From Tricholoma matsutake (taxonomy: Eukaryota > Basidiomycota > Agaricomycetes > Agaricales > Tricholomataceae): DNA of 64,000 nt. Numbering within the stretch: position 1 is the first letter of the stretch; the number at the start of each line of letters is the position of its first letter. Under the pieces are notes generated by a model, which worked only from the letters and a program-made list of their open reading frames with translations, did no database searches and was not told the DNA's origin. The position numbers and the translations under genes were made by a program. Positions 52,545 through 64,000 of this stretch are shown here, piece by piece. The stretch lies in the NCBI GenBank assembly GCA_026075535.2, contig AP026548.1, positions 4,774,001 through 4,838,000 of the forward strand, in the 5' to 3' direction.

Positions 52545-53813
52545 CTATTTTTCCGAGTCCATAGTCGTGGGAACGACAGTGGATGCACCAGCTTTTGCGG
52601 CTTTGGATTTCAGGCAGTTTCCTGCTACATGCCCTTCCTCACCACAGTAGAGACAAAGTTGTTCTCTCATGCGACATTCTCGTTCCTCCCCAGTAAGCTT
52701 GCCGTTCTTCCCCAACTTATTGGAGATGGACGACTTGGGCTTGTCCTGGGAAGTGGTCACATTCACGGAAGACTGCTGGTTGGAGGTGTTACTGTGGGTG
52801 GAGTTTGAAGAGGCTTGGTTTGTCGATGGGGAAGGACTTTTGGAAGAGTCCTTCCGACTAGAGTTAGTGACGTTACTGGAATTCTTTGTTTCAAAATGGG
52901 ATTCATCTTCTTGCATCCAGTAGATGTCATCGCTGTCCTGCACTTTCAAGTGCAGTTCTGCAAGAGTATTGGGTTTACCACCCCAGAGAACTTCTATGCA
53001 AAGTCGGAGTGGAAGACCGCGGAAATAGTGGTCACGAAGGGCTGCTTCATTCCAGTTGACCCTAGAAGCTAATTCCTGGAAGTCAACATTATATTTCGTG
53101 ATACGACCACCTTTCTTCATTGCTAAGTCAGAGAGAGCTTTTTCCGCATCTCCGACTGGGTTGTGCGGACCAAAGTTGCTTTCCAGCTTGGCGAGGAAAG
53201 CTTCATAGTCCCACATCCAGTGTGCAGAATTGGTTGGGTCATTAAGACCAGGCTCAAACCAACTGAGAGCTGATCCTTTAAGATAAGAAAGGATGAATAT
53301 GATCTTTTTCTCATCAGAGGAAAATACGTGCGGACAGTCACAGAAATGAAGATTGCAGGAGACTAGGAAGTCTCTAAGTTTCTTTGGATTGGCACCATTG
53401 AAAGTGTCGGGGTCGCAAACTTTGATTTTCTTGGTCTTGTGTGCGTTATTCTGATGAAGGGTGCAGATACTCTCCGAGAGGTTGTAAAGGACATCTATGA
53501 ACCTATCCCCTGGGTCAGGGTTTTCCCCTGCAGGAGGTTGATCCTCAGGATCATTGGGATCGGGGTCACCCCCAGGGCCGTCAGGACTGCTAGGGTCATC
53601 AGGTCCACCAGGGGGTGCATCCTCTAGACCAGGATCTTCCAACCCAAAGGGTTCAGGCTGGTTGATGCCCCCTATGTACTTCCCTTGAGTTCTTGATCGA
53701 AAACCTTCTGGGTTGGCGGAAGGGTGCAGGGCACAGGTGGACATGAGATTGGCACTGATTGAGGGGGCTCCTGAGCCGATTTGTTGGAAGATGTTTGAGG
53801 GTCTGGAAGACAC
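52545..53813 (-). CDS. gypsy-2 Gag, open frame
   Basis: Retrotransposon capsid-nucleocapsid protein. The frame is open over 422 codons; the first in-frame ATG is at 53744 (MSTCALHPSAN), so the N terminus is uncertain. An acidic Pro/Gly/Asp-rich stretch comes first, then the capsid-like retrotrans_gag region (FLVSCNLHFCDCP, KKIIFILSYLKGSALSWFEP, ITKYNVDFQELASRVNW). A Ser/Asn/Thr-rich linker leads to a CCHC zinc knuckle (CLYCGEEGHVAGNC) near 52615-52660. It ends with TAG at 52545-52547. Pol is in a different (-1) frame, open from immediately before that stop. Confidence 0.88.
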   Translation of the reverse strand: MSSRPSNIFQQIGSGAPSISANLMSTCALHPSANPEGFRSRTQGKYIGGINQPEPFGLEDPGLEDAPPGGPDDPSSPDGPGGDPDPNDPEDQPPAGENPDPGDRFIDVLYNLSESICTLHQNNAHKTKKIKVCDPDTFNGANPKKLRDFLVSCNLHFCDCPHVFSSDEKKIIFILSYLKGSALSWFEPGLNDPTNSAHWMWDYEAFLAKLESNFGPHNPVGDAEKALSDLAMKKGGRITKYNVDFQELASRVNWNEAALRDHYFRGLPLRLCIEVLWGGKPNTLAELHLKVQDSDDIYWMQEDESHFETKNSSNVTNSSRKDSSKSPSPSTNQASSNSTHSNTSNQQSSVNVTTSQDKPKSSISNKLGKNGKLTGEERECRMREQLCLYCGEEGHVAGNCLKSKAAKAGASTVVPTTMDSEK

Positions 53814-54469: not shown

Positions 54470-54671
54470 CCACATCCCTCATGTAGGACACGAGGGAGTG
54501 GGTATAATATAATAATAAACAAAAAAAAACCCCTCTCACATCTTGTGAGAGGGGGGGGATTATTACTATGTACATAAAAAACTAAACCCCTCGCATTCGG
54601 TGCGAGGGGGAGGGGCAGAGATAAATTAAAAATAATAAAGACCCCTCCCCATGCAAAATGCAGGGGAGGGG
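54470..54671. repeat. Four consecutive GC-rich hairpins
   Basis: Stems: CCCTC...GAGGG within 54470-54500; CCCCTCTCACA/TGTGAGAGGGG (54530-54554, loop TCT); CCCCTCGCA/TGCGAGGGG (54587-54609, loop TTCGG); CCCCTCCCC/GGGGAGGGG (54642-54671). The outer bases are the same, the inner bases differ yet stay paired, and spacers are A/T-rich with ATAATAAA-type sequence. Confidence 0.85.
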
Positions 54672-54760
54672 GGGTTGGGGGATGCAGTCTGGGGTGGGTG
54701 TCGTCGCCCACCCCTCCTCGCACGCATCTGTCGCCTTAGCAAGCTGCACCTGTCATCCAC

Positions 54761-54901
54761 CCTACGAGCAGTTGCTCGTAGGTGTGGGGATGGGTGCCAT
54801 GGTTGTCTTATCCCTGGTGTGCCTGCCATCCACCCGACAAGCAGCTGCTCGTTGGCATGGGCTCTCACCACCCATCCACCCTGCGAGCAGGGGCTCGCAG
54901 G
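54761..54901. repeat. Three dispersed-family palindromes
   Basis: CCTACGAGCA/TGCTCGTAGG (54761-54782), CGACAAGCA/TGCTCGTTG (near 54834-54854) and CCTGCGAGC/GCTCGCAGG (54880-54901), each preceded by CATCCACC. Related palindromes occur at 28.3 and 29.75-29.95 kb. Confidence 0.85.
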
Positions 54902-54916
54902 CGTGGGGTGGGTGTG

Positions 54917-55520
54917 TTGGCTCGTTTGCGGGTGGTGGTGTTGTTACTAGTAGATTATAACCTAGAAAACTAAAAAAACAAGTTAGTTAGTTCATAAAAA
55001 CAAAAAGCAAATGAAAAAAACTCATGTAGGGCCCAAACGACGCGATCTGCATCATTTGGGCCCGCATTGGCTCGTTTGCGGGTGGTGGTGTTGTTACTAG
55101 TAGATTATAACCTAGAAAACTAAAAAAACGAGTTAATTAGTTGATAAAAACAAAAACCAAGTGAAGAAAACTTACATAGGGCCCAAACTATGCGATCTGC
55201 ATCGTTTGGGCCCATGTTGGCTCGTTTGCGAGTGGTGGTGTCATTACTCGTAGATTATAACCTAGAAAACTAAAAAAACAAGTTAGTTAGTTTATAAAAA
55301 CAAAAACCAAGCAAAAAAAACTTACATAAGGCCCAAATGACACAGATCGCATTGTTTGGGCCCATGTTGGCTCCTTTGCAAGTGGTGGCATCATTGCCAG
55401 TAGATTATAACCTAGAAAGCTAAAAAAACAGGTTGGTTAGTTTATAAAAACAAAAAGCAAACGAAAAAAAAACTTATGTAGGGCCCATCCATTGGGCTCA
55501 TTTGCAGGTGGTGGTGATGG
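54917..55520. repeat. ~150 bp tandem repeat, about four copies
   Basis: Units start at TTGGCTCGTTTGCGGGTGG (54917), again near 55068, 55219 and 55368. Each has TAGATTATAACCTAGAAA and a long palindrome GGGCCCAAAC...GTTTGGGCCC (for example 55029-55063, 55178-55213). A diverged single copy sits at 34241-34360. Confidence 0.88.
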
Positions 55521-56671: not shown

Positions 56672-58930
56672 AAACTGTACTGTACCTAGAATAGACAAGG
56701 CTAAACTAAGGTACAGTAAGTAACTCTGGCCAAGCGACACTCTAAGATAATACAATACTCACCTCAGTCCTTGTATAAGTGACTGAGGTGGCAGGTAATG
56801 TATCTAGATATATATATATGTTCAGTCAGACAAAGAGGGAATGAGAAAGGGAAACAAGGTGTTTGTTTGTATGCATCAAAGGGTTGTGATAAAAATAGCA
56901 CACACATCAAAAAGTGATGCATCGTTCCATGGTGTGTCTCTCAACACTCCTCCTCACTGTGGTACTCCTCCTCGCATGGAATCGTGTTATCGTAGGCCCA
57001 GGTGACCCTGTAAGTAAGTAAATTGTTTGACATCAAGGGGTTTAGTGAACATGTTGGCAATATTTTCCCAGGTATTGACATATGTAAGGTGTAGGTCATT
57101 GGACTGGACGTGCTCGCAAAGAAAGTGATATTTAAGGTTGACATGTTTAACATGGCAGTGAAGGAGGGGGTCTTCAGACAAGGTCTTGGTGGTGGAGTTG
57201 TCACAATAGATAGTCATTGGCGATAATTGTTGGTAATCAATAGAGGCAAGCAACGTGCATAACCACACACATTCCTTGGCAGCTTCAAAGGCTGCAATGT
57301 ACTCTGCCTCACACAAGGATGTGGCAACTACCTTTTGTTTGCAGGCAGTCCAGGAGATAGCGCCTGAGCCAAGAGAACATATGTATCCCCCAACACTGCA
57401 ACATGTGTCAAGACAATTAGCCCAGTCAGAATCGCTGAATGCATGGAGGGTGAGAGGGTTGTCTCCTCTGAGATAAAGTTTCAGGTCTCTTGTCCCCTTC
57501 AGGTAACATACCAGTCTGATAGCAGTTGCCCAGTGATTGAAGGAGTAGCAGTCAAGATATTGGGATAATTGTTGGACTGCATAGGCAATATCGGGATGCA
57601 TAGATATGGCCAAATATAGTAAGCAGCCAACAAGTGATCGATATGGAAGTTTGTTGAGTTGTAATTGATCATCAGGGGTTATAGACTGTCTATCAGGATG
57701 GTGGAGCTTGGACCCATTCTCTAGAGGAGCCAATACTGGGTGGTCTTTCTGACCAAACTGTTCAATGATTTTGTCAATAAGAGCCATTTGTGAAAGGGCA
57801 ACTGTATGCATAGATCTGTCCCAGGTGACAGCGATTCCAATGATGAAATGTGCAGTACCCAGCTTGGAAATAGTCCATACTTCTCACATCTGACCTTTGA
57901 AGCATTTGTTCTCAGCCTGCGAGTCCGCAATGGATAGAAAATTGTTGATGTGAATGGCTACAATAACAATCCCAGTGTCAGATTTGTGATAGTAAATGCA
58001 AGATTTGCAAGACAGGTGAGTAAAACCCCAGGCGATCATCTGTGCGTTGAGTGTCTGGTTCCATATGCATCCACTCTGTTTCATACCATATAGCCCATGC
58101 TGAAGCTGCCACACCCAGTCTTCTTTCCCAGTCTCTTCAAAACCCACAGGTTGTTGCATATATTGAATTTCGTTGTTGGGTAGTAAGCCATATAAGAATG
58201 CCATCTCAACATTGATCTGTTGGGCATCCCAGCCCAGAGAGGTGGCAATGTGTAATAGAATCTGCCAAGATTTTATGCGCCCAGTCGGTGAGGTAGTTTT
58301 AGTGTAGTCTTTTCCATATATTTGTTTGAAACCTTTGAAAACTAGATGTACTTTCCACCTGACCACTTTTTCTGCCTCATCTTGCTTAATATGGAAGACT
58401 GGTTTCCCTTTTCGGACCTGCTTCCCCTGAGGTACTTCATCCCCAGGAATTAATTTGTAGATGCCCATGTCCTTCAGGGATTGCAGTTTGTCAATGTAAC
58501 CTTCCTTCCATCATTCAGCATCAACAGAATTTATGGCCTCCTCCTACGTCCTGGGGTCATCCTCAAACTGAAGAGACTCGGGATCAAAGTCTGCCATCTC
58601 TTAAATGAGGGCTCAGAATTGATGTGCTTGATCACTGAGATCAAGATTATCAAGAGATTGCCATAGTTCCTCAATGATGTCATGATCATGATCGAGTTCA
58701 GGGTCTGGTGGGCAACCAGTGTCTGCCGTTCAGGTTGCTATTATTGCTGCTCTCCATTCCCATTGTTGTTCCTTCACCCGGGCAGCACTCTCTCACAATT
58801 CCTGGATGGCTGTTACAATTTTGTTATCGTAACCCAAGACGACCAGATGTATGCCGGCAAGACCGGGTACTTTATTTTTCCTTTGCATTCGACACGATTC
58901 ATCCCAATGGACCCTCCAATATGACTCCCA
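56672..58930 (-). mobile_element. 3' part of a second Ty1/copia element
   Basis: 56672-56945 looks like the inner part of its 3' LTR (ending CTCTCAACA), followed by a purine-rich tract on the minus strand (GAGGAG) and pol sequence. Gypsy-2 seems to have inserted in this LTR, because 35785-35841 and 56688-56800 share CCTAGAATAGACAAGGCTAA and CTCAGTCCTTG blocks. Gag, protease and integrase are missing; the element ends near the gypsy-3 LTR. The left LTR boundary was not resolved. Confidence 0.65.
56946..58620 (-). pseudogene. copia-2 RT and RNase H
   Basis: RT begins near 58600 (DPESLQFEDDP) and includes MGIYKLIPGDEVPQGKQ, VFKGFKQIYGKDYTKTTSP, MAFLYGLLPNNE and GLYGMKQSGCIWNQTLN. The active-site region reads VAIHINNFLSIA where copia has VDD. 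RNase H includes FSDSDWANCLDTCCSVGGY, SLCEAEYIAAFEAAKECVW and YCDNSTTKTLSEDPLL. End near 56990. In-frame TGA near 58491 and 57894 fit Arg; one TAG near 58545 does not. The linker between RT and RNase H continues in frame after the TGA. Confidence 0.85.
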
Positions 58931-59245
58931 CTGATTGACAGGCTGCGCCGCAGCAGTCCTTGACATTGGATCCATGACATTGGATGCCTCATGCTTGGCA
59001 TGAGGCTTATCTGCTATTTCTTCTTCAACATGCTGCACTGCAGCACCCCGTGACATCGGACGCCTCATGCTAGGCATGAGGCTTATTGTTCTATTGTTCT
59101 TTCTATTATTACTTGACAAGGATCTCATATTCCAATTGGACGATAGACATCTCTGAACCATATATAAGCTACAGTAATACTGCCTGTATTCCTTAGCTTG
59201 ACCTAATTTAATCAACAGTCTTAGACTCAATCCGAACACTCAACA
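58930..59245 (+). repeat. Probable 5' LTR of gypsy-3 (boundaries approximate)
   Basis: Contains two related blocks with perfect hairpins GCCTCATGC/GCATGAGGC (58987-59007 and 59063-59083), each preceded by TGACAT(T/C)GGA. Then follows an AT-rich part with TATATAAG near 59160 (TATA-like) and an end ...ACTCAACA near 59245. TG...CA termini are plausible. The partner LTR is outside the window, so the limits are unproven. Confidence 0.5.
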
Positions 59246-59463
59246 GCCTAGGAAATCCCTAGCTGTGATAGACTCAAACTCGACAGTTGGAAAGCCTCCA
59301 ACTGTGATACATGAATGAACTGTCTACTCAGAAAGCCTCTGAGTACGGATAGCCATGACTACTTGAGGAAGCACCCAAGCAAAGCCCAAAAGCCCAAAAC
59401 ACTAGGAAAGCCTCCTAGTGCAATAAACGAAGACAAGTTTGAGTTAAGACCAATAGTCTTAAC
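59244..59463 (+). ncRNA. Leader of gypsy-3: array of six stem-loops before gag
   Basis: Hairpins start at 59244, 59283, 59325, 59361, 59400 and 59443, about 40 nt apart. Stems: CTAGG/CCTAG; ACAGTTGG/CCAACTGT; TACTCAG/CTGAGTA; CTTGAGG/CCCAAG (bulged A); CACTAGG/CCTAGTG; GTTAAGAC/GTCTTAAC. Loops of hairpins 2, 3 and 5 are the identical AAAGCCT; 1 and 4 have AAATC and AAGCA. Stem sequences differ but pairing is kept. It lies between the LTR and the gag ATG at 59482, so a role in packaging, dimerisation, priming or translation is inferred. Confidence 0.75.
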
Positions 59464-59481
59464 AAAAGGTCAAGCTGATCT

Positions 59482-60600
59482 ATGCAGTCCACCTACCTAG
59501 GTGCAGACACAACATCTTTCAGACAAAGCCCAGACAGACCTCCAACTGGAGCATCATCATCAGGAAGATCCCCGTGGTATAGATACCAGGGTCGACTAGT
59601 ACAATACTCAGAACCAGCACAGAAGTGGTTCTCAAGGAGAACCAGTGACAAAGAACCCCGATACCTCAACAAAGAGGATTTCAGATCTTTCGATAAAGAA
59701 GAAACCCCAGAACAAGATCCATTCTCCCTATTCAATGACAATGCCAATATGTCTACCAAACCCACCACATCGACCAAAGAGATCAGAATATGAATCCCCT
59801 CTGACTTCACAGGGGACCGAACCAGAACTGCAGAGTTCTTACAAGAAGTGAAACTCTACTTGAGAGTAAACCATGGAATCTACAACATCGATGAGAAGAA
59901 GATCATCTTCACGTTGTCCTTCATGAATGGAGGAACCACTGCACCCTGGGCACAGACATGGGCAGAAAAGGAAGACCTAGGGACCTGGTCAACCTTTGAG
60001 ACTACGCTCAAGTCGGTGTTCACACCAATTGACAAAGCTGGCAGAGCCAGGACAGAAATGAAAACACTGAAGCAGGGACAGGACCTGGAGGACTACATTG
60101 CGCAGTTCCAAATCCTGCAAGAGAAGGTGGGGATCAATGATGACACCACCCTCATTGAACTCTTTATGGATGGGTTGAACCCCAAGCTCCTCAAAAGAGT
60201 TTTTAACATGGAAACAATCCCCACAACCCTGGAGGGGATGATCAGCACCACCTCCAAGTAGGACGGAAAATGGAGGAGAGCAAAGGCCATAACAGGGAGA
60301 GCACAGGAGGCTTTGGCGAAAAGGCTGCCCAGCTCCAAACCAAAAGAGGGCCCACTTGAGATTAACTGACTCTCCTACCAGGAGAGGATTGAGCATATGA
60401 AGAAGGGATTATGCTTTGTGTGCCACCAACCAGGACACAGAGCGACCAAACATAAGAAAGGGGAGACGAGGACCGAAAATTGGTCATTCCTGAAGAAGAA
60501 AGGCAAAGAAGCCTACTCGAAGATCCGGGCAATCATGAAAGAACTTGATGAAGAAGGAAAGGAGAAAGCTCTCGCCTTAATAGGGGACAAGGGTTTTTAA
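59482..60600 (+). pseudogene. gypsy-3 gag
   Basis: ATG at 59482. After a polar N terminus, the frame reads IPSDFTGDRTRTAEFLQEV and LYLRVNHGIYNIDEKKIIFT, the typical retrotrans_gag core of Tf1/sushi-like fungal gypsy elements. FETTLKSVFTPIDKAGRAR and MKTLKQGQDLEDYIAQFQIL follow, then a CCHC knuckle (CFVCHQPGHRATKH; last position His) near 60410-60455. Stops: TGA near 59791 and 60369 at Arg sites, TAG near 60259; the natural end is TAA at 60598-60600. Confidence 0.85.
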
Positions 60601-60617: not shown

Positions 60618-63600
60618 ATGCCAGGTACCACCAAACTCTCTGTCTGCTCTGTACTACTAGCCACTTTGAAGAATCAATCTCTGCATTTAGATGTCAAAGT
60701 GCTAGGAGCAGGCAAAGGGAAAGCCATCAAAACTGAAGCCCTACTCAACTCAGGAGCATGAGGAATATTCATGAGCCACAAATTTGCAAAAAGTGGCAGA
60801 TTCGAGTTACACCCCCTCAAAAGGACAATCAGGGTCAAGAATGTGGATGGAACCCCGAACAAGAAAGGGGAGATCTCCCACTATGCCAAGGGATTCTTAA
60901 CAATCAATGGAAGATCTTTTCCAATGACCTTCCTCATTGCAGGATTGGGAAAAGAATCAATCATCCTGGGTCTGCCGTGGCTCAGAAGAATCAACCCAGT
61001 GATCGACTGGAGAATTGGAACCTTCCAATTCTGAATGACCGACAGAACCCACCCCAAATTCTCATTTGAAGAAGGGAGAACCCTTATTGGGAGGACACAA
61101 ATGAAGAAACCTGATGATGAACATCTGGCATGGCGCCAGAAGACAGTCAAAGAAGAAGGAAAACCCTTCAAAGAAATGACGAGAGAAGAGAAATGGGCAT
61201 GGGCCCAAAAGATGGTCACCAAGGCAAGAGAAAAGATGGGACTCAAAACAAAGGCAAAAGAAGAAGAGCAACTAATGTGGCGCCGCATAGCTGCTAAAGC
61301 ACTGGAGAAACTCACCCTCAAAAAGAAACCAGCAAGCGAGGAATGGCTAGCACTATGCTGAAGAGTTGCCGCTAAAGCAAGAGAGATGGGAGAAGCCCTC
61401 CAAACTAAATGGGAAGGGAGGAAGACACCCACTGAAACAAGAAAAGCAACGATCAAAGAGGTGGAAGATGAAGAGATCGCAGTCACGACTCTTCAGAATG
61501 CAGAGCCCATTGGCCCACAAGACGAAGAAGACACTGGGAAGGAAAACCTGGCACTGGCAAACTACAAACAGGCAATGGAACAGGCAACGGAACAGGCAAT
61601 GGAACAACTGGAAGGAACACCCAAACAAGAGATTGCAGACGACAAGCTACTAGTCGCCTACATCCGAGGAGAACCCATCATCGGAATATTTGAACTGGCT
61701 AAAACACCACTGACAGAGGAGTATGACGAGCCAAGATACAGATACTCCCAGACAACAAAGACAATCTCTCGGATCGTGAAGGCAAAAGGATCACCATGAT
61801 ATGCATATGGACAGAATATCTGGATTAGGGCAAAAACATCGGTCTCACAGCACCTGACACACAAGAAGGAAGGAGACCCCAAACAAAAGACCCTGGATGA
61901 ACTACTCCCTGAACAATACAGGGAGTACCAATGGATATTTGAAAAGGAAGCATTGGAATGATTCCCAGAATCAAGACCCTGGGATCATGCGATCAAACTG
62001 AAACCAGATTTTATAGCAAAGGACTGCAGGGTTTACCCATGATCGCCGGTAGAACAGAAGAAACTCGATGAGTTTCTTGACAAAAGCCTAGAGAAAGGAT
62101 ACATCCGACCATCAAAATCGCCCATGGTATCACCATTCTTCTTCGTTGCGAAGAAGGACTTGGATGCCTTGAGACCATGTCAGGACTACAGGTACTTGAA
62201 TAATGGAACAATCAAGAACACCTACCCACTGCCGCTGGTAGGAGACCTGTTGGACAAACTGAGAGGGGCAAGATGGTTCACAAAGGCTGGACATCTGATG
62301 GGGATATCACAACATCAGAATCAAGGATGGAGATCAATGGAAAGCAGCTTTCAAGACAAACAGAGGCCTGTTTGAACCAACGGTGATGTTCTTTGGATTA
62401 TGCAACTCACCGGCGACCTTCCAGGCGATGGTGAATGAGATTTTCCATGATATGATTGGAGAAGGATGGCTCATGATTTACATGGACGACATCCTAATAT
62501 TCTCCAAGGATCAGAATGAACAGCAGGAAAGGACAAGAAGAGTGCTGCAAAGATTGGCAGAAAATGACCTATACCTGAAACTGGAGAAATGCAAGTTTGA
62601 CATCCACGAGGTAGAATTTCTGGGTCTGATCATCTGACCCAATGAAATTGCAATGGACAATACAAAGCTGGCAGGAATACAAGATTGGCCCACCCCGACA
62701 AATGTAAAGGCAGTTAGATCCTTCCTGGGGTTTGGAAATTTCTACAGGAAATTTATTGGACATTTTGCGGAGACAAGCAGACCGCTTAATGAATTGACAA
62801 AGAAGGACAAGATGTTCAACTGGACAATGGAGTGCGAGCAGGCCTTTCAAACATTGAAAAGGAAATTCGCAGAAGCACCGGTACTGCTGATGCCAGACCC
62901 AATGAAACCATTCACAATCGAATCAGACGCCTCAAAACACACTACAGGAGGAGTGCTGAGACAGAGGGACATGAATGGGGACTGGCATCCGTGTGGATAC
63001 ATATCGCATGCACTAACACCAATGGAATGGAACTACGAGATATATGACAGGGAGTTACTAGTGATTGTGCAATCGCTGGAGACCTGGAGATACTGCCTAC
63101 TGGGATCAGGACACCCAGTGGTAATCCTGTCGGACCACAAGAATCTAACATACTTCTGGACAGTGCAGAAACTGAACAGATGACAGGCAAGATGGAGCTT
63201 ATTCCTATTGGAATTCGAATTCCAACTCATCCATGTGCCCGGATCACAAATGGTGCAAAGCGATGCATTGTCGTGAAGGGCTGATCACATACCGGAAGAA
63301 GACAACGATAATGAAGATGTCATGATGTTACCTGAAATGGTATTCGTGAAGTTCATTGATACAGAAATTCATGATCTACTTGCAGGAGGTATCATGAAAG
63401 ATGACCTGGTGAAGAGCACAATTGAGGTGCTAAAGACGAAAGGAACCCCGCCAATAAAATTGGCGTTAGAAGACTGGAAGATAGAAGATGGCCTTCTATT
63501 CTCCCGAGACAGATGCTATGTCCCTGACAACAGAGATCTACGGAAGAAGCTGGTACAAAAATACCACGAAGGAGTAACCAGCAGACACCCAGGACAATGG

Positions 63601-64000
63601 CAAACAACTGAAATGATCAGGAGAGACTACTGGTGGCTGTGGATGATGATGATGTACATCAAGAACTACATTGCTGGATGCGCAATATGCTAGCAGATGA
63701 AGGTCAACACGCACCCGATGACCCCCCCTCTACAACCAATTACATCTGAAGCAACGAGGCCATTTGCAATGGTTATGACTGATTTCATAACCAACCTACC
63801 AGAATCCGACGCCTATGATGCTCTCATGGTTGTGGTAGACCATGGTCTTACGAAGGGGGTAATTTTTATCCCTTGCAGAAAAACCATGGACGCATTTGGA
63901 GTGGCCACCCTCTATCTAGACTATGTCTACAAATGATTTGGCCTCCCGGACAAGATCATCTCCGACAGAGACCCACGATTCGCCTCGCAGCTGTTCCAGG
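60618..64000 (+). pseudogene. gypsy-3 pol, cut by the window edge
   Basis: Protease ALLNSGA followed by TGA and GIFMSHKFA near 60730-60785 (catalytic Asp replaced by Asn). A long charged Lys/Glu linker lies between 61.05 and 61.7 kb. [17 protein letters not shown] near 62120, FFGLCNSPATFQAMVNEIF and active site MIYMDDILIFSKD near 62475-62510. RNase [17 protein letters not shown] near 62910. Integrase zinc region near 63560-63700 and VMTDFITNLPESDAYDAL near 63775. In-frame TGA near 60759, 61032, 61361, 61797, 61960, 62041, 62296, 62635, 63181, 63274 and 63934 fit Arg; TAG near 63691 fits Gln. A one-base insertion lies near 62285. The integrase continues beyond 64000. Confidence 0.88.

Follow-up and report, generated by a model that had tools for sequence, protein, structure and literature searches.

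What are the regularly spaced hairpins at the 5' end of a retrotransposon of Tricholoma matsutake, and what maintains them? We addressed this question in a window (C11:4774001-4838000, the whole stretch of 64,000 nucleotides analysed) of a genome of 161,040,721 bases in 13 contigs. An initial annotation had described six such hairpins. They are present, with starts 37-43 nt apart, together with a U5-IR-like stem predicted to close the array:

59243..59266, plus strand: hairpin 1 (b), found by folding, with a bulged C and loop AAATC; 74 of 98 ungapped copies have standard pairs throughout
59283..59305, plus strand: hairpin 2 (c), loop AAGCC on a 9-bp stem; 89 of 99 copies have standard pairs throughout
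59325..59345, plus strand: hairpin 3 (d), 8 bp, loop AAGCC; all pairs standard in 90 of 99 copies
59362..59379, plus strand: hairpin 4 (e), bulged A, loop AAGCA; all pairs standard in 73 of 75 ungapped copies, two outer pairs excluded
59400..59420, plus strand: hairpin 5 (f), 8 bp, loop AAGCC; all pairs standard in 73 of 79 ungapped copies, outermost pair excluded
59443..59463, plus strand: hairpin 6 (h), loop CAATA on an 8-bp stem next to the end of the LTR; all pairs standard in 83 of 100 copies
59218..59230, plus strand: 5' arm of the U5-IR-like stem, pairing with 59439-59450
59439..59450, plus strand: 3' arm of this stem, found by folding; overlaps and competes with hairpin 6

The array is far beyond chance. 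Four perfect hairpins (stem of at least 6 bp, 5-nt loop) were counted in 59193-59464, against a mean of 0.06 and a maximum of 2 in 2000 dinucleotide shuffles, and the fold of 59190-59490 reached -92.8 kcal/mol against -57.8 kcal/mol for shuffles (z -8.2; 0 of 100 shuffles as good). For this class of hairpin 59193-59464 is the densest 272-nt stretch of the window. In a looser class (stem of at least 7 bp, loops of 3-8 nt) it ties with a stretch near 54.5 kb, where the hairpins are GC-rich palindromes with unrelated loops; four perfect palindromes lie there at 54530-54782 and adjoin tandem repeats at 54915-55487. The likeness of the loops was confirmed, since three are the same (AAGCC closed by A-U), AAATC and AAGCA are close variants, and the last is CAATA. 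The stems had been described as fully or almost fully paired; four are perfect, hairpin 1 is bulged, and hairpin 4 is weak in the window copy (6 pairs with a bulge). The U5-IR-like stem has 14 pairs as defined on copy L046, each of them paired in 80 to 98 of 97-98 copies, shows little covariation, and excludes hairpin 6 when it forms, as hairpin 6 excludes it. No Rfam covariance model matched 58811-59520 at E of 1 or below. A simple tandem repeat was considered and rejected because TRF found no array of period near 40.

At first the array was placed downstream of the LTR, filling the stretch up to the gag ATG. This placement was not borne out. The LTR runs to 59464 and the downstream LTR carries the array as well, so the array lies inside the LTR, and a leader between LTR and gag was rejected. 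The element consists of the following parts in the window:

58811..59464, plus strand: 5' LTR (U3-R-U5, TGTTAC...TTAACA, 654 bp), delimited by alignment to other LTR copies
59482..60600, plus strand: gag frame, interrupted in the window copy, with PF03732 on 59848-60258
62299..63693, plus strand: pol fragments with reverse transcriptase, RNase H and integrase zinc-binding domains (RVT_1, RT_RNaseH_2, Integrase_H2C2)

The main alignment starts at 58811 in 13 of 29 other loci, among them the downstream LTR (L002), which aligns with 58811-59465 at 92%. The 3' LTR matches end at 59464 or 59465 in most loci (at 59472 in L027), and 17 nt separate the LTR end from the ATG at 59482. The LTRs are flanked by ATGGC and ACGGC, apparently a 5-bp target-site duplication with one C/T difference (a transition); another copy pair (L005/L014) has an exact CCAGG duplication. 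A chromodomain follows past the window (L002:211-696; Chromo 1e-14, SH3_Tf2-1 1.4e-18), and the pol with chromodomain integrase is that of Ty3/gypsy, an assignment that applies to the window's element only. A Copia pol fragment on the minus strand adjoins the element at 57884-58810 (RVT_2 on 57884-58468), and the array-bearing element is therefore probably nested in a Copia copy. T. matsutake is also the host of marY1, described as an LTR retrotransposon of about 6 kb with hundreds of copies and an LTR of 426 bp (PMC10211490). The LTR studied here, of 654 bp, differs from that of marY1 in length, the feature on which the two are compared.

The following sequences lie on the two sides of the array:

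59161..59167, plus strand: TATATAA box, followed by the self-primer at a spacing of exactly 32 nt in 97 of 100 copies
59193..59204, plus strand: self-primer TTAGCTTGACCT, putative RNA 5' end, pairing with 59467-59478
59467..59478, plus strand: primer-binding site (PBS) AGGTCAAGCTGA, 2 nt past the LTR, complement of the self-primer

In the window copy the self-primer, which begins 32 nt after the start of the TATA box, and the PBS form 12 pairs, one of them G-U, and bracket the array in the layout of Tf1-type self-priming. This arrangement is general among the copies of the element (family A). Of 100 exact PBS places listed, 94 were taken in (30 + 60 + 4) and 6 left out. Distinct copies with a PBS number 105, some of which were picked for the similarity of their LTR; in 100 of the 105 the self-primer occurs with at most 3 mismatches, 200-345 nt before the LTR end. 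Of the 30 loci that were cut out by the exact PBS alone, 29 have it with at most 2 mismatches. Across the genome the PBS pattern occurs 668 times with at most 3 mismatches, against 139 for a reversed control. Transcription would start at the self-primer, judging from the TATA spacing of 32 nt here and of 33 nt in 18/18 copies of a second family (B). We consider that the array probably constitutes R-U5 in the LTR of a chromovirus (a chromodomain-bearing Ty3/gypsy element) that primes itself.

LTR elements more commonly use a tRNA as primer, and the element might in principle do so too, with an incidental complementarity between RNA start and PBS. This is extremely improbable because the PBS does not begin with TGG and because, from one family to another (A, B and C), a change of primer goes with a change of PBS. 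Neither primer core (A or B) had a match with at most 1 mismatch in 20 tRNA loci, which is a weak check in that 15 of the 17 loci recognised by ARAGORN are for isoleucine.

Family B was reached through the related gag protein P0008 and was thus selected by gag, not by PBS. Of 20 leaders fetched in this way, 18 belong to family B and one (L169) to family A; L170 is in neither count. All 18 have the primer TAGTTTAGATCT, the PBS AGATCTAAACTA and the TATA box at 33 nt, with 1-2 mismatches in 4 of them. Compared by eye, A and B disagree at 6 of 12 positions of the primer, with a complementary change in the PBS; as read from these sequences, primer and PBS have changed together. The R-U5 of family B aligns to that of A in patches only and has only one perfect-stem hairpin, with loop AAGCC, while folds of three copies gave imperfect hairpins with loops AAGGC or AAGCC and AAGCA. 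With primer and PBS removed, the fold excess is still a mean z of -7.0 in A and -4.5 in B (8 copies each).

Family C, the window's other gypsy family (52545-53813, minus strand), has the self-priming layout without a hairpin array. It was sampled in 4 of 99 listed copies found with the window's other gypsy gag. An 11-nt primer, AGTTCGTATAT, matches a PBS, ATATACGAACT, 2 nt past the terminal CA; the pairing is perfect in two copies, with one G-U in a third and one mismatch in the fourth, and TATTTAA lies 35 nt upstream in 3/4 copies. Family C has at most one perfect hairpin of stem 7 bp or longer and no folding excess (core z -0.9, 4 copies). A self-primer with a PBS 0-5 nt past the 5' LTR is thus present in 100/105 A, 18/18 B and 4/4 C copies when mismatches are allowed, the LTR end having been compared with the 3' LTR in family A and read from ...AACA in B and C. 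All three families have the self-priming layout but only two have the array, which is therefore an elaboration and not a requirement. Self-priming had been one of three suggested roles, next to a packaging signal bound by Gag and control of initiation. A self-primer and its matching PBS do bracket the hairpins, but the array itself is not the priming element.

The number of hairpins is variable. Distances from primer to LTR end fall at 238-240 (6 copies), 270-276 (13), 301-306 (65) and 344-345 nt (12), with 4 others, and these clusters step by about one hairpin unit. When copies are folded one at a time, some lack entire hairpins and others have extra ones. Gain and loss concern complete hairpin units. 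Within the units the loop is kept while the stem is not: the perfect hairpins of family A combine seven different 6-nt inner arms with AAGNN loops, of which 286 are AAGCC and 35 AAGTC.

It had been claimed that stems which change but remain paired indicate selection on RNA structure, and the other copies support this. An alignment of 100 copies has 5650 stem cells, of which 5286 are Watson-Crick, 121 G-U, 192 A-C and 51 other; hairpins e, f and g account for 118 of the 192 A-C cells through their outermost pair. Covariation, the check proposed at the outset, was assessed in two ways. In a G-test with an R-scape style null only 2 of 32 pairs passed Bonferroni correction, and 1 of the top 40 column pairs was in the structure, because subfamily history dominates. 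A pair-aware score with the same kind of tree null, used after the G-test, was 1.20 against a null maximum of 0.34 in 300 tree simulations of the 100 copies (31 pairs variable on both sides, none dropped), with 9 covarying pairs against at most 2 in the simulations and zero at six slides. The null is a harsh one, since it places changes by branch length and lets mean pairing drop to 0.57 against 0.94 observed.

Raw rates of change first suggested strong conservation of the stems (linker 6.13, stem 1.75 and loop 1.90 changes per column), a candidate argument weakened by CpG decay: with CpG columns removed the values are 2.34, 1.41 and 1.90, the contrast of stem to linker shrinks from 3.5-fold to 1.7-fold, and loops barely differ from linkers. 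Transversion and branch tests were used for this reason. Transversions per column on internal branches were 0.41 for linker, 0.19 for stem and 0.07 for loop, the loop value being based on about 2 events. Outer pairs that are often unpaired (two in e, one in f and one in g) were set aside in advance, and the pairs left are the core pairs. Changes in core pairs that keep and that break pairing were 25:14 on internal branches and 28:58 on terminal ones (Fisher p 0.0009); changes to G-U and to A-C were 14:8 and 21:36, respectively (p 0.03). Hundreds of copies in one genome are a natural record of a structure under selection (internal branches) and of its decay after insertion (terminal branches). 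Together with family B, which has a similar architecture with other stems, these tests support the view that the hairpins are kept by selection on pairing.

The hairpins might instead be palindromes acting at the DNA level, or mere products of tandem duplication, without a function in RNA. They do look like duplicated units, the U3 of the same LTR has repeated palindromes (58986-59006 and 59062-59082), and the antisense strand folds at least as stably, with the lower energy in 40/40 copies tested. However, the excess over shuffles is smaller for antisense (z -5.0) than for sense (z -6.2; 10 copies), and the sense linkers are 40% A. The diverged stems keep their pairing beyond tree simulations, the internal excess of G-U over A-C fits the sense RNA, and the array begins after the predicted transcription start in both A and B. 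We therefore regard this explanation as improbable.

A stronger competitor is that the array is a packaging signal only, with the loops as sites for the zinc knuckle of Gag in RNA selection or dimerisation, unrelated to priming; its place in R-U5 would reflect the frequent occurrence of packaging signals in the 5' leader. The loop that stays constant while stems change is in its favor, as is the fact that the priming layout of family C does not need the array. A CCHC motif, CFVCHQPGHRATEH, was recognised by eye in the Gag of an open copy. In the window copy a CCHC-like motif lies near 60410-60455, but its Pfam match (zf-CCHC_2, E 0.065) falls under the cut-off. Moreover, the Gag of family C also has a CCHC motif (by eye) and no array goes with it, and in both array-bearing families the array lies wholly between primer and PBS. 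Packaging alone is a possible explanation, though one that we hold to be less probable than a role linked to priming.

Our best reading, which we consider probable, is that the array is a scaffold and at the same time a multivalent protein-binding RNA, whose binding partner we infer. The RNA would start with the self-primer, and its first 10-12 nt would return to pair with the PBS that closely follows the 5' LTR. The intervening stretch of roughly 240-345 nt would then form a row of 6-10-bp hairpins with AAGCC-like pentaloops and A-rich linkers, held in a loop closed by the primer helix and by the U5-IR-like stem (59218-59230 with 59439-59450), which would alternate with hairpin 6. Such a compact scaffold could keep the RNA 5' end beside the PBS. 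The repeated loops may be shown to the element's own Gag or reverse transcriptase, and several weak contacts would aid primer cleavage and packaging. The A-rich loop exposes a G and Gag has a CCHC motif, which makes Gag the first candidate for the loop binder. By analogy with Tf1, RNase H would free the primer (PMC7175516, PMC10085805).

Tf1/sushi elements (Tf1, Tf2, Tj1, Tosmo1-3) are likewise chromodomain Ty3/gypsy elements, for which self-priming and a 'pretzel' of three duplexes have been described (PMC4600332, PMC10085805, PMC7175516). The matsutake element resembles them, as described there, in a putative RNA 5' end complementary to a PBS just past an LTR ending in CA, and in a PBS-adjacent sequence predicted to pair with an LTR segment downstream of the primer. 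This pairing would correspond to one side duplex of the 'pretzel'; its mean z is -2.4 in A (20 copies), -1.6 in B (18) and +0.8 in C (4), and the second side duplex was not found by inspection by eye. Unlike the three duplexes of Tf1/sushi, a structure taken from citing papers, the matsutake loop encloses about 4-8 covarying hairpins that share a single loop motif. In the accounts consulted, self-primed reverse transcription is described mainly from fission yeast Tf1.

The Tcn1 clade, with members in basidiomycetes and non-seed plants, is another point of comparison, made by description only: the element studied here is, like Tcn1, a chromovirus in a basidiomycete host. Cryptococcus Tcn1 has been proposed to prime itself, and most plant members of the clade are predicted to do so (PMC2864245, PMC6317226, PMC7175516), while neither mechanism, self-priming or priming by tRNA, was found in Selaginella SM-Tcn1 (PMC2864245). 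The descriptions of the clade that were consulted mention no hairpin array, in which the matsutake element differs. More generally, no hairpin array in a fungal LTR element was found in the titles and abstract openings of the literature searched. As far as these sources go, a known priming trick is here combined with a modular RNA scaffold of an unfamiliar kind.

Retroviral R-U5 and packaging leaders also have hairpins with exposed loop purines between the RNA start and gag, and in this they resemble the array. They are tRNA-primed, and to our knowledge their hairpins are few and are not gained or lost as a modular series. The matsutake element differs by its self-primer and by its modular series.

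The start of gag bears on a further possibility. The ATG at 59482 that had been taken for the start of gag is doubtful, since the triplet is ATG in only 42 of 105 copies, ACG in 33, ACA in 26 and other in 4. Codon 12 is similar (ACG 19, ACA 13, ATG 12 in 44 copies), as is the start-equivalent codon of family B (by eye, ACG 8, ACA 5, ATG 5 in 18 copies). Such mixtures resemble what CpG decay would make of an ACG. Up to and including codon 91, the sole invariant ATG is codon 91 itself (59749; 44/44 copies). It is possible that Gag has a non-AUG start and an N-terminal extension; if so, a translational role of the array becomes more likely. The hairpins would then stall or route scanning ribosomes and favor the non-AUG start, which would fit an array that makes up nearly the whole predicted 5' UTR and first gag codons that read as decayed ACG. 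The extension also resembles database relatives P0002, P0008 and P0012 (by eye), and residues about 18-84 of P0008 match at E 1e-5 to 8e-4. On the other hand, changes by codon position in the extension (15/11/28) show a weak third-position excess compared with 72/57/232 after codon 91, its transversions (26/16/23) show none, and the kept loop would be left unexplained. We therefore think translation control rather unlikely as the explanation of the array.

Scaffolding, protein binding and an extended Gag might also be joined in an expandable U5 device, in which AAGCC-type loops on interchangeable stems would set the recruitment of Gag or reverse transcriptase and the same 5' UTR would drive the non-AUG extended Gag. 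This combined proposal is unlikely as it stands. If it were true, modules added or lost would tune the strength with which Gag or reverse transcriptase is recruited to the self-primer. The three families, two with hairpins and one without, and each with a matched but different primer and PBS, make the role of R-U5 structure in self-primed reverse transcription directly testable.

Relatives were not found in viral contigs, except for one 25-residue match. Stops inside the genome-wide gag matches are mostly TGA among the matches listed, as decay of CGA at CpG predicts. U3 has a repeated palindrome, GCCTCATGCTnGGCATGAGG, at 58972-59010 and 59048-59086; it is present with at most 3 mismatches in 96/105 family A copies, in 3/3 family B copies inspected and in 0/2 of family C, and is perhaps a promoter element. 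Just past the PBS, at 59490-59503, CACCTACCTAGGTG recurs in 4/5 family A copies inspected and in 18/18 family B copies despite their diverged LTRs. It can form a 5-bp hairpin and also encodes TYLG.
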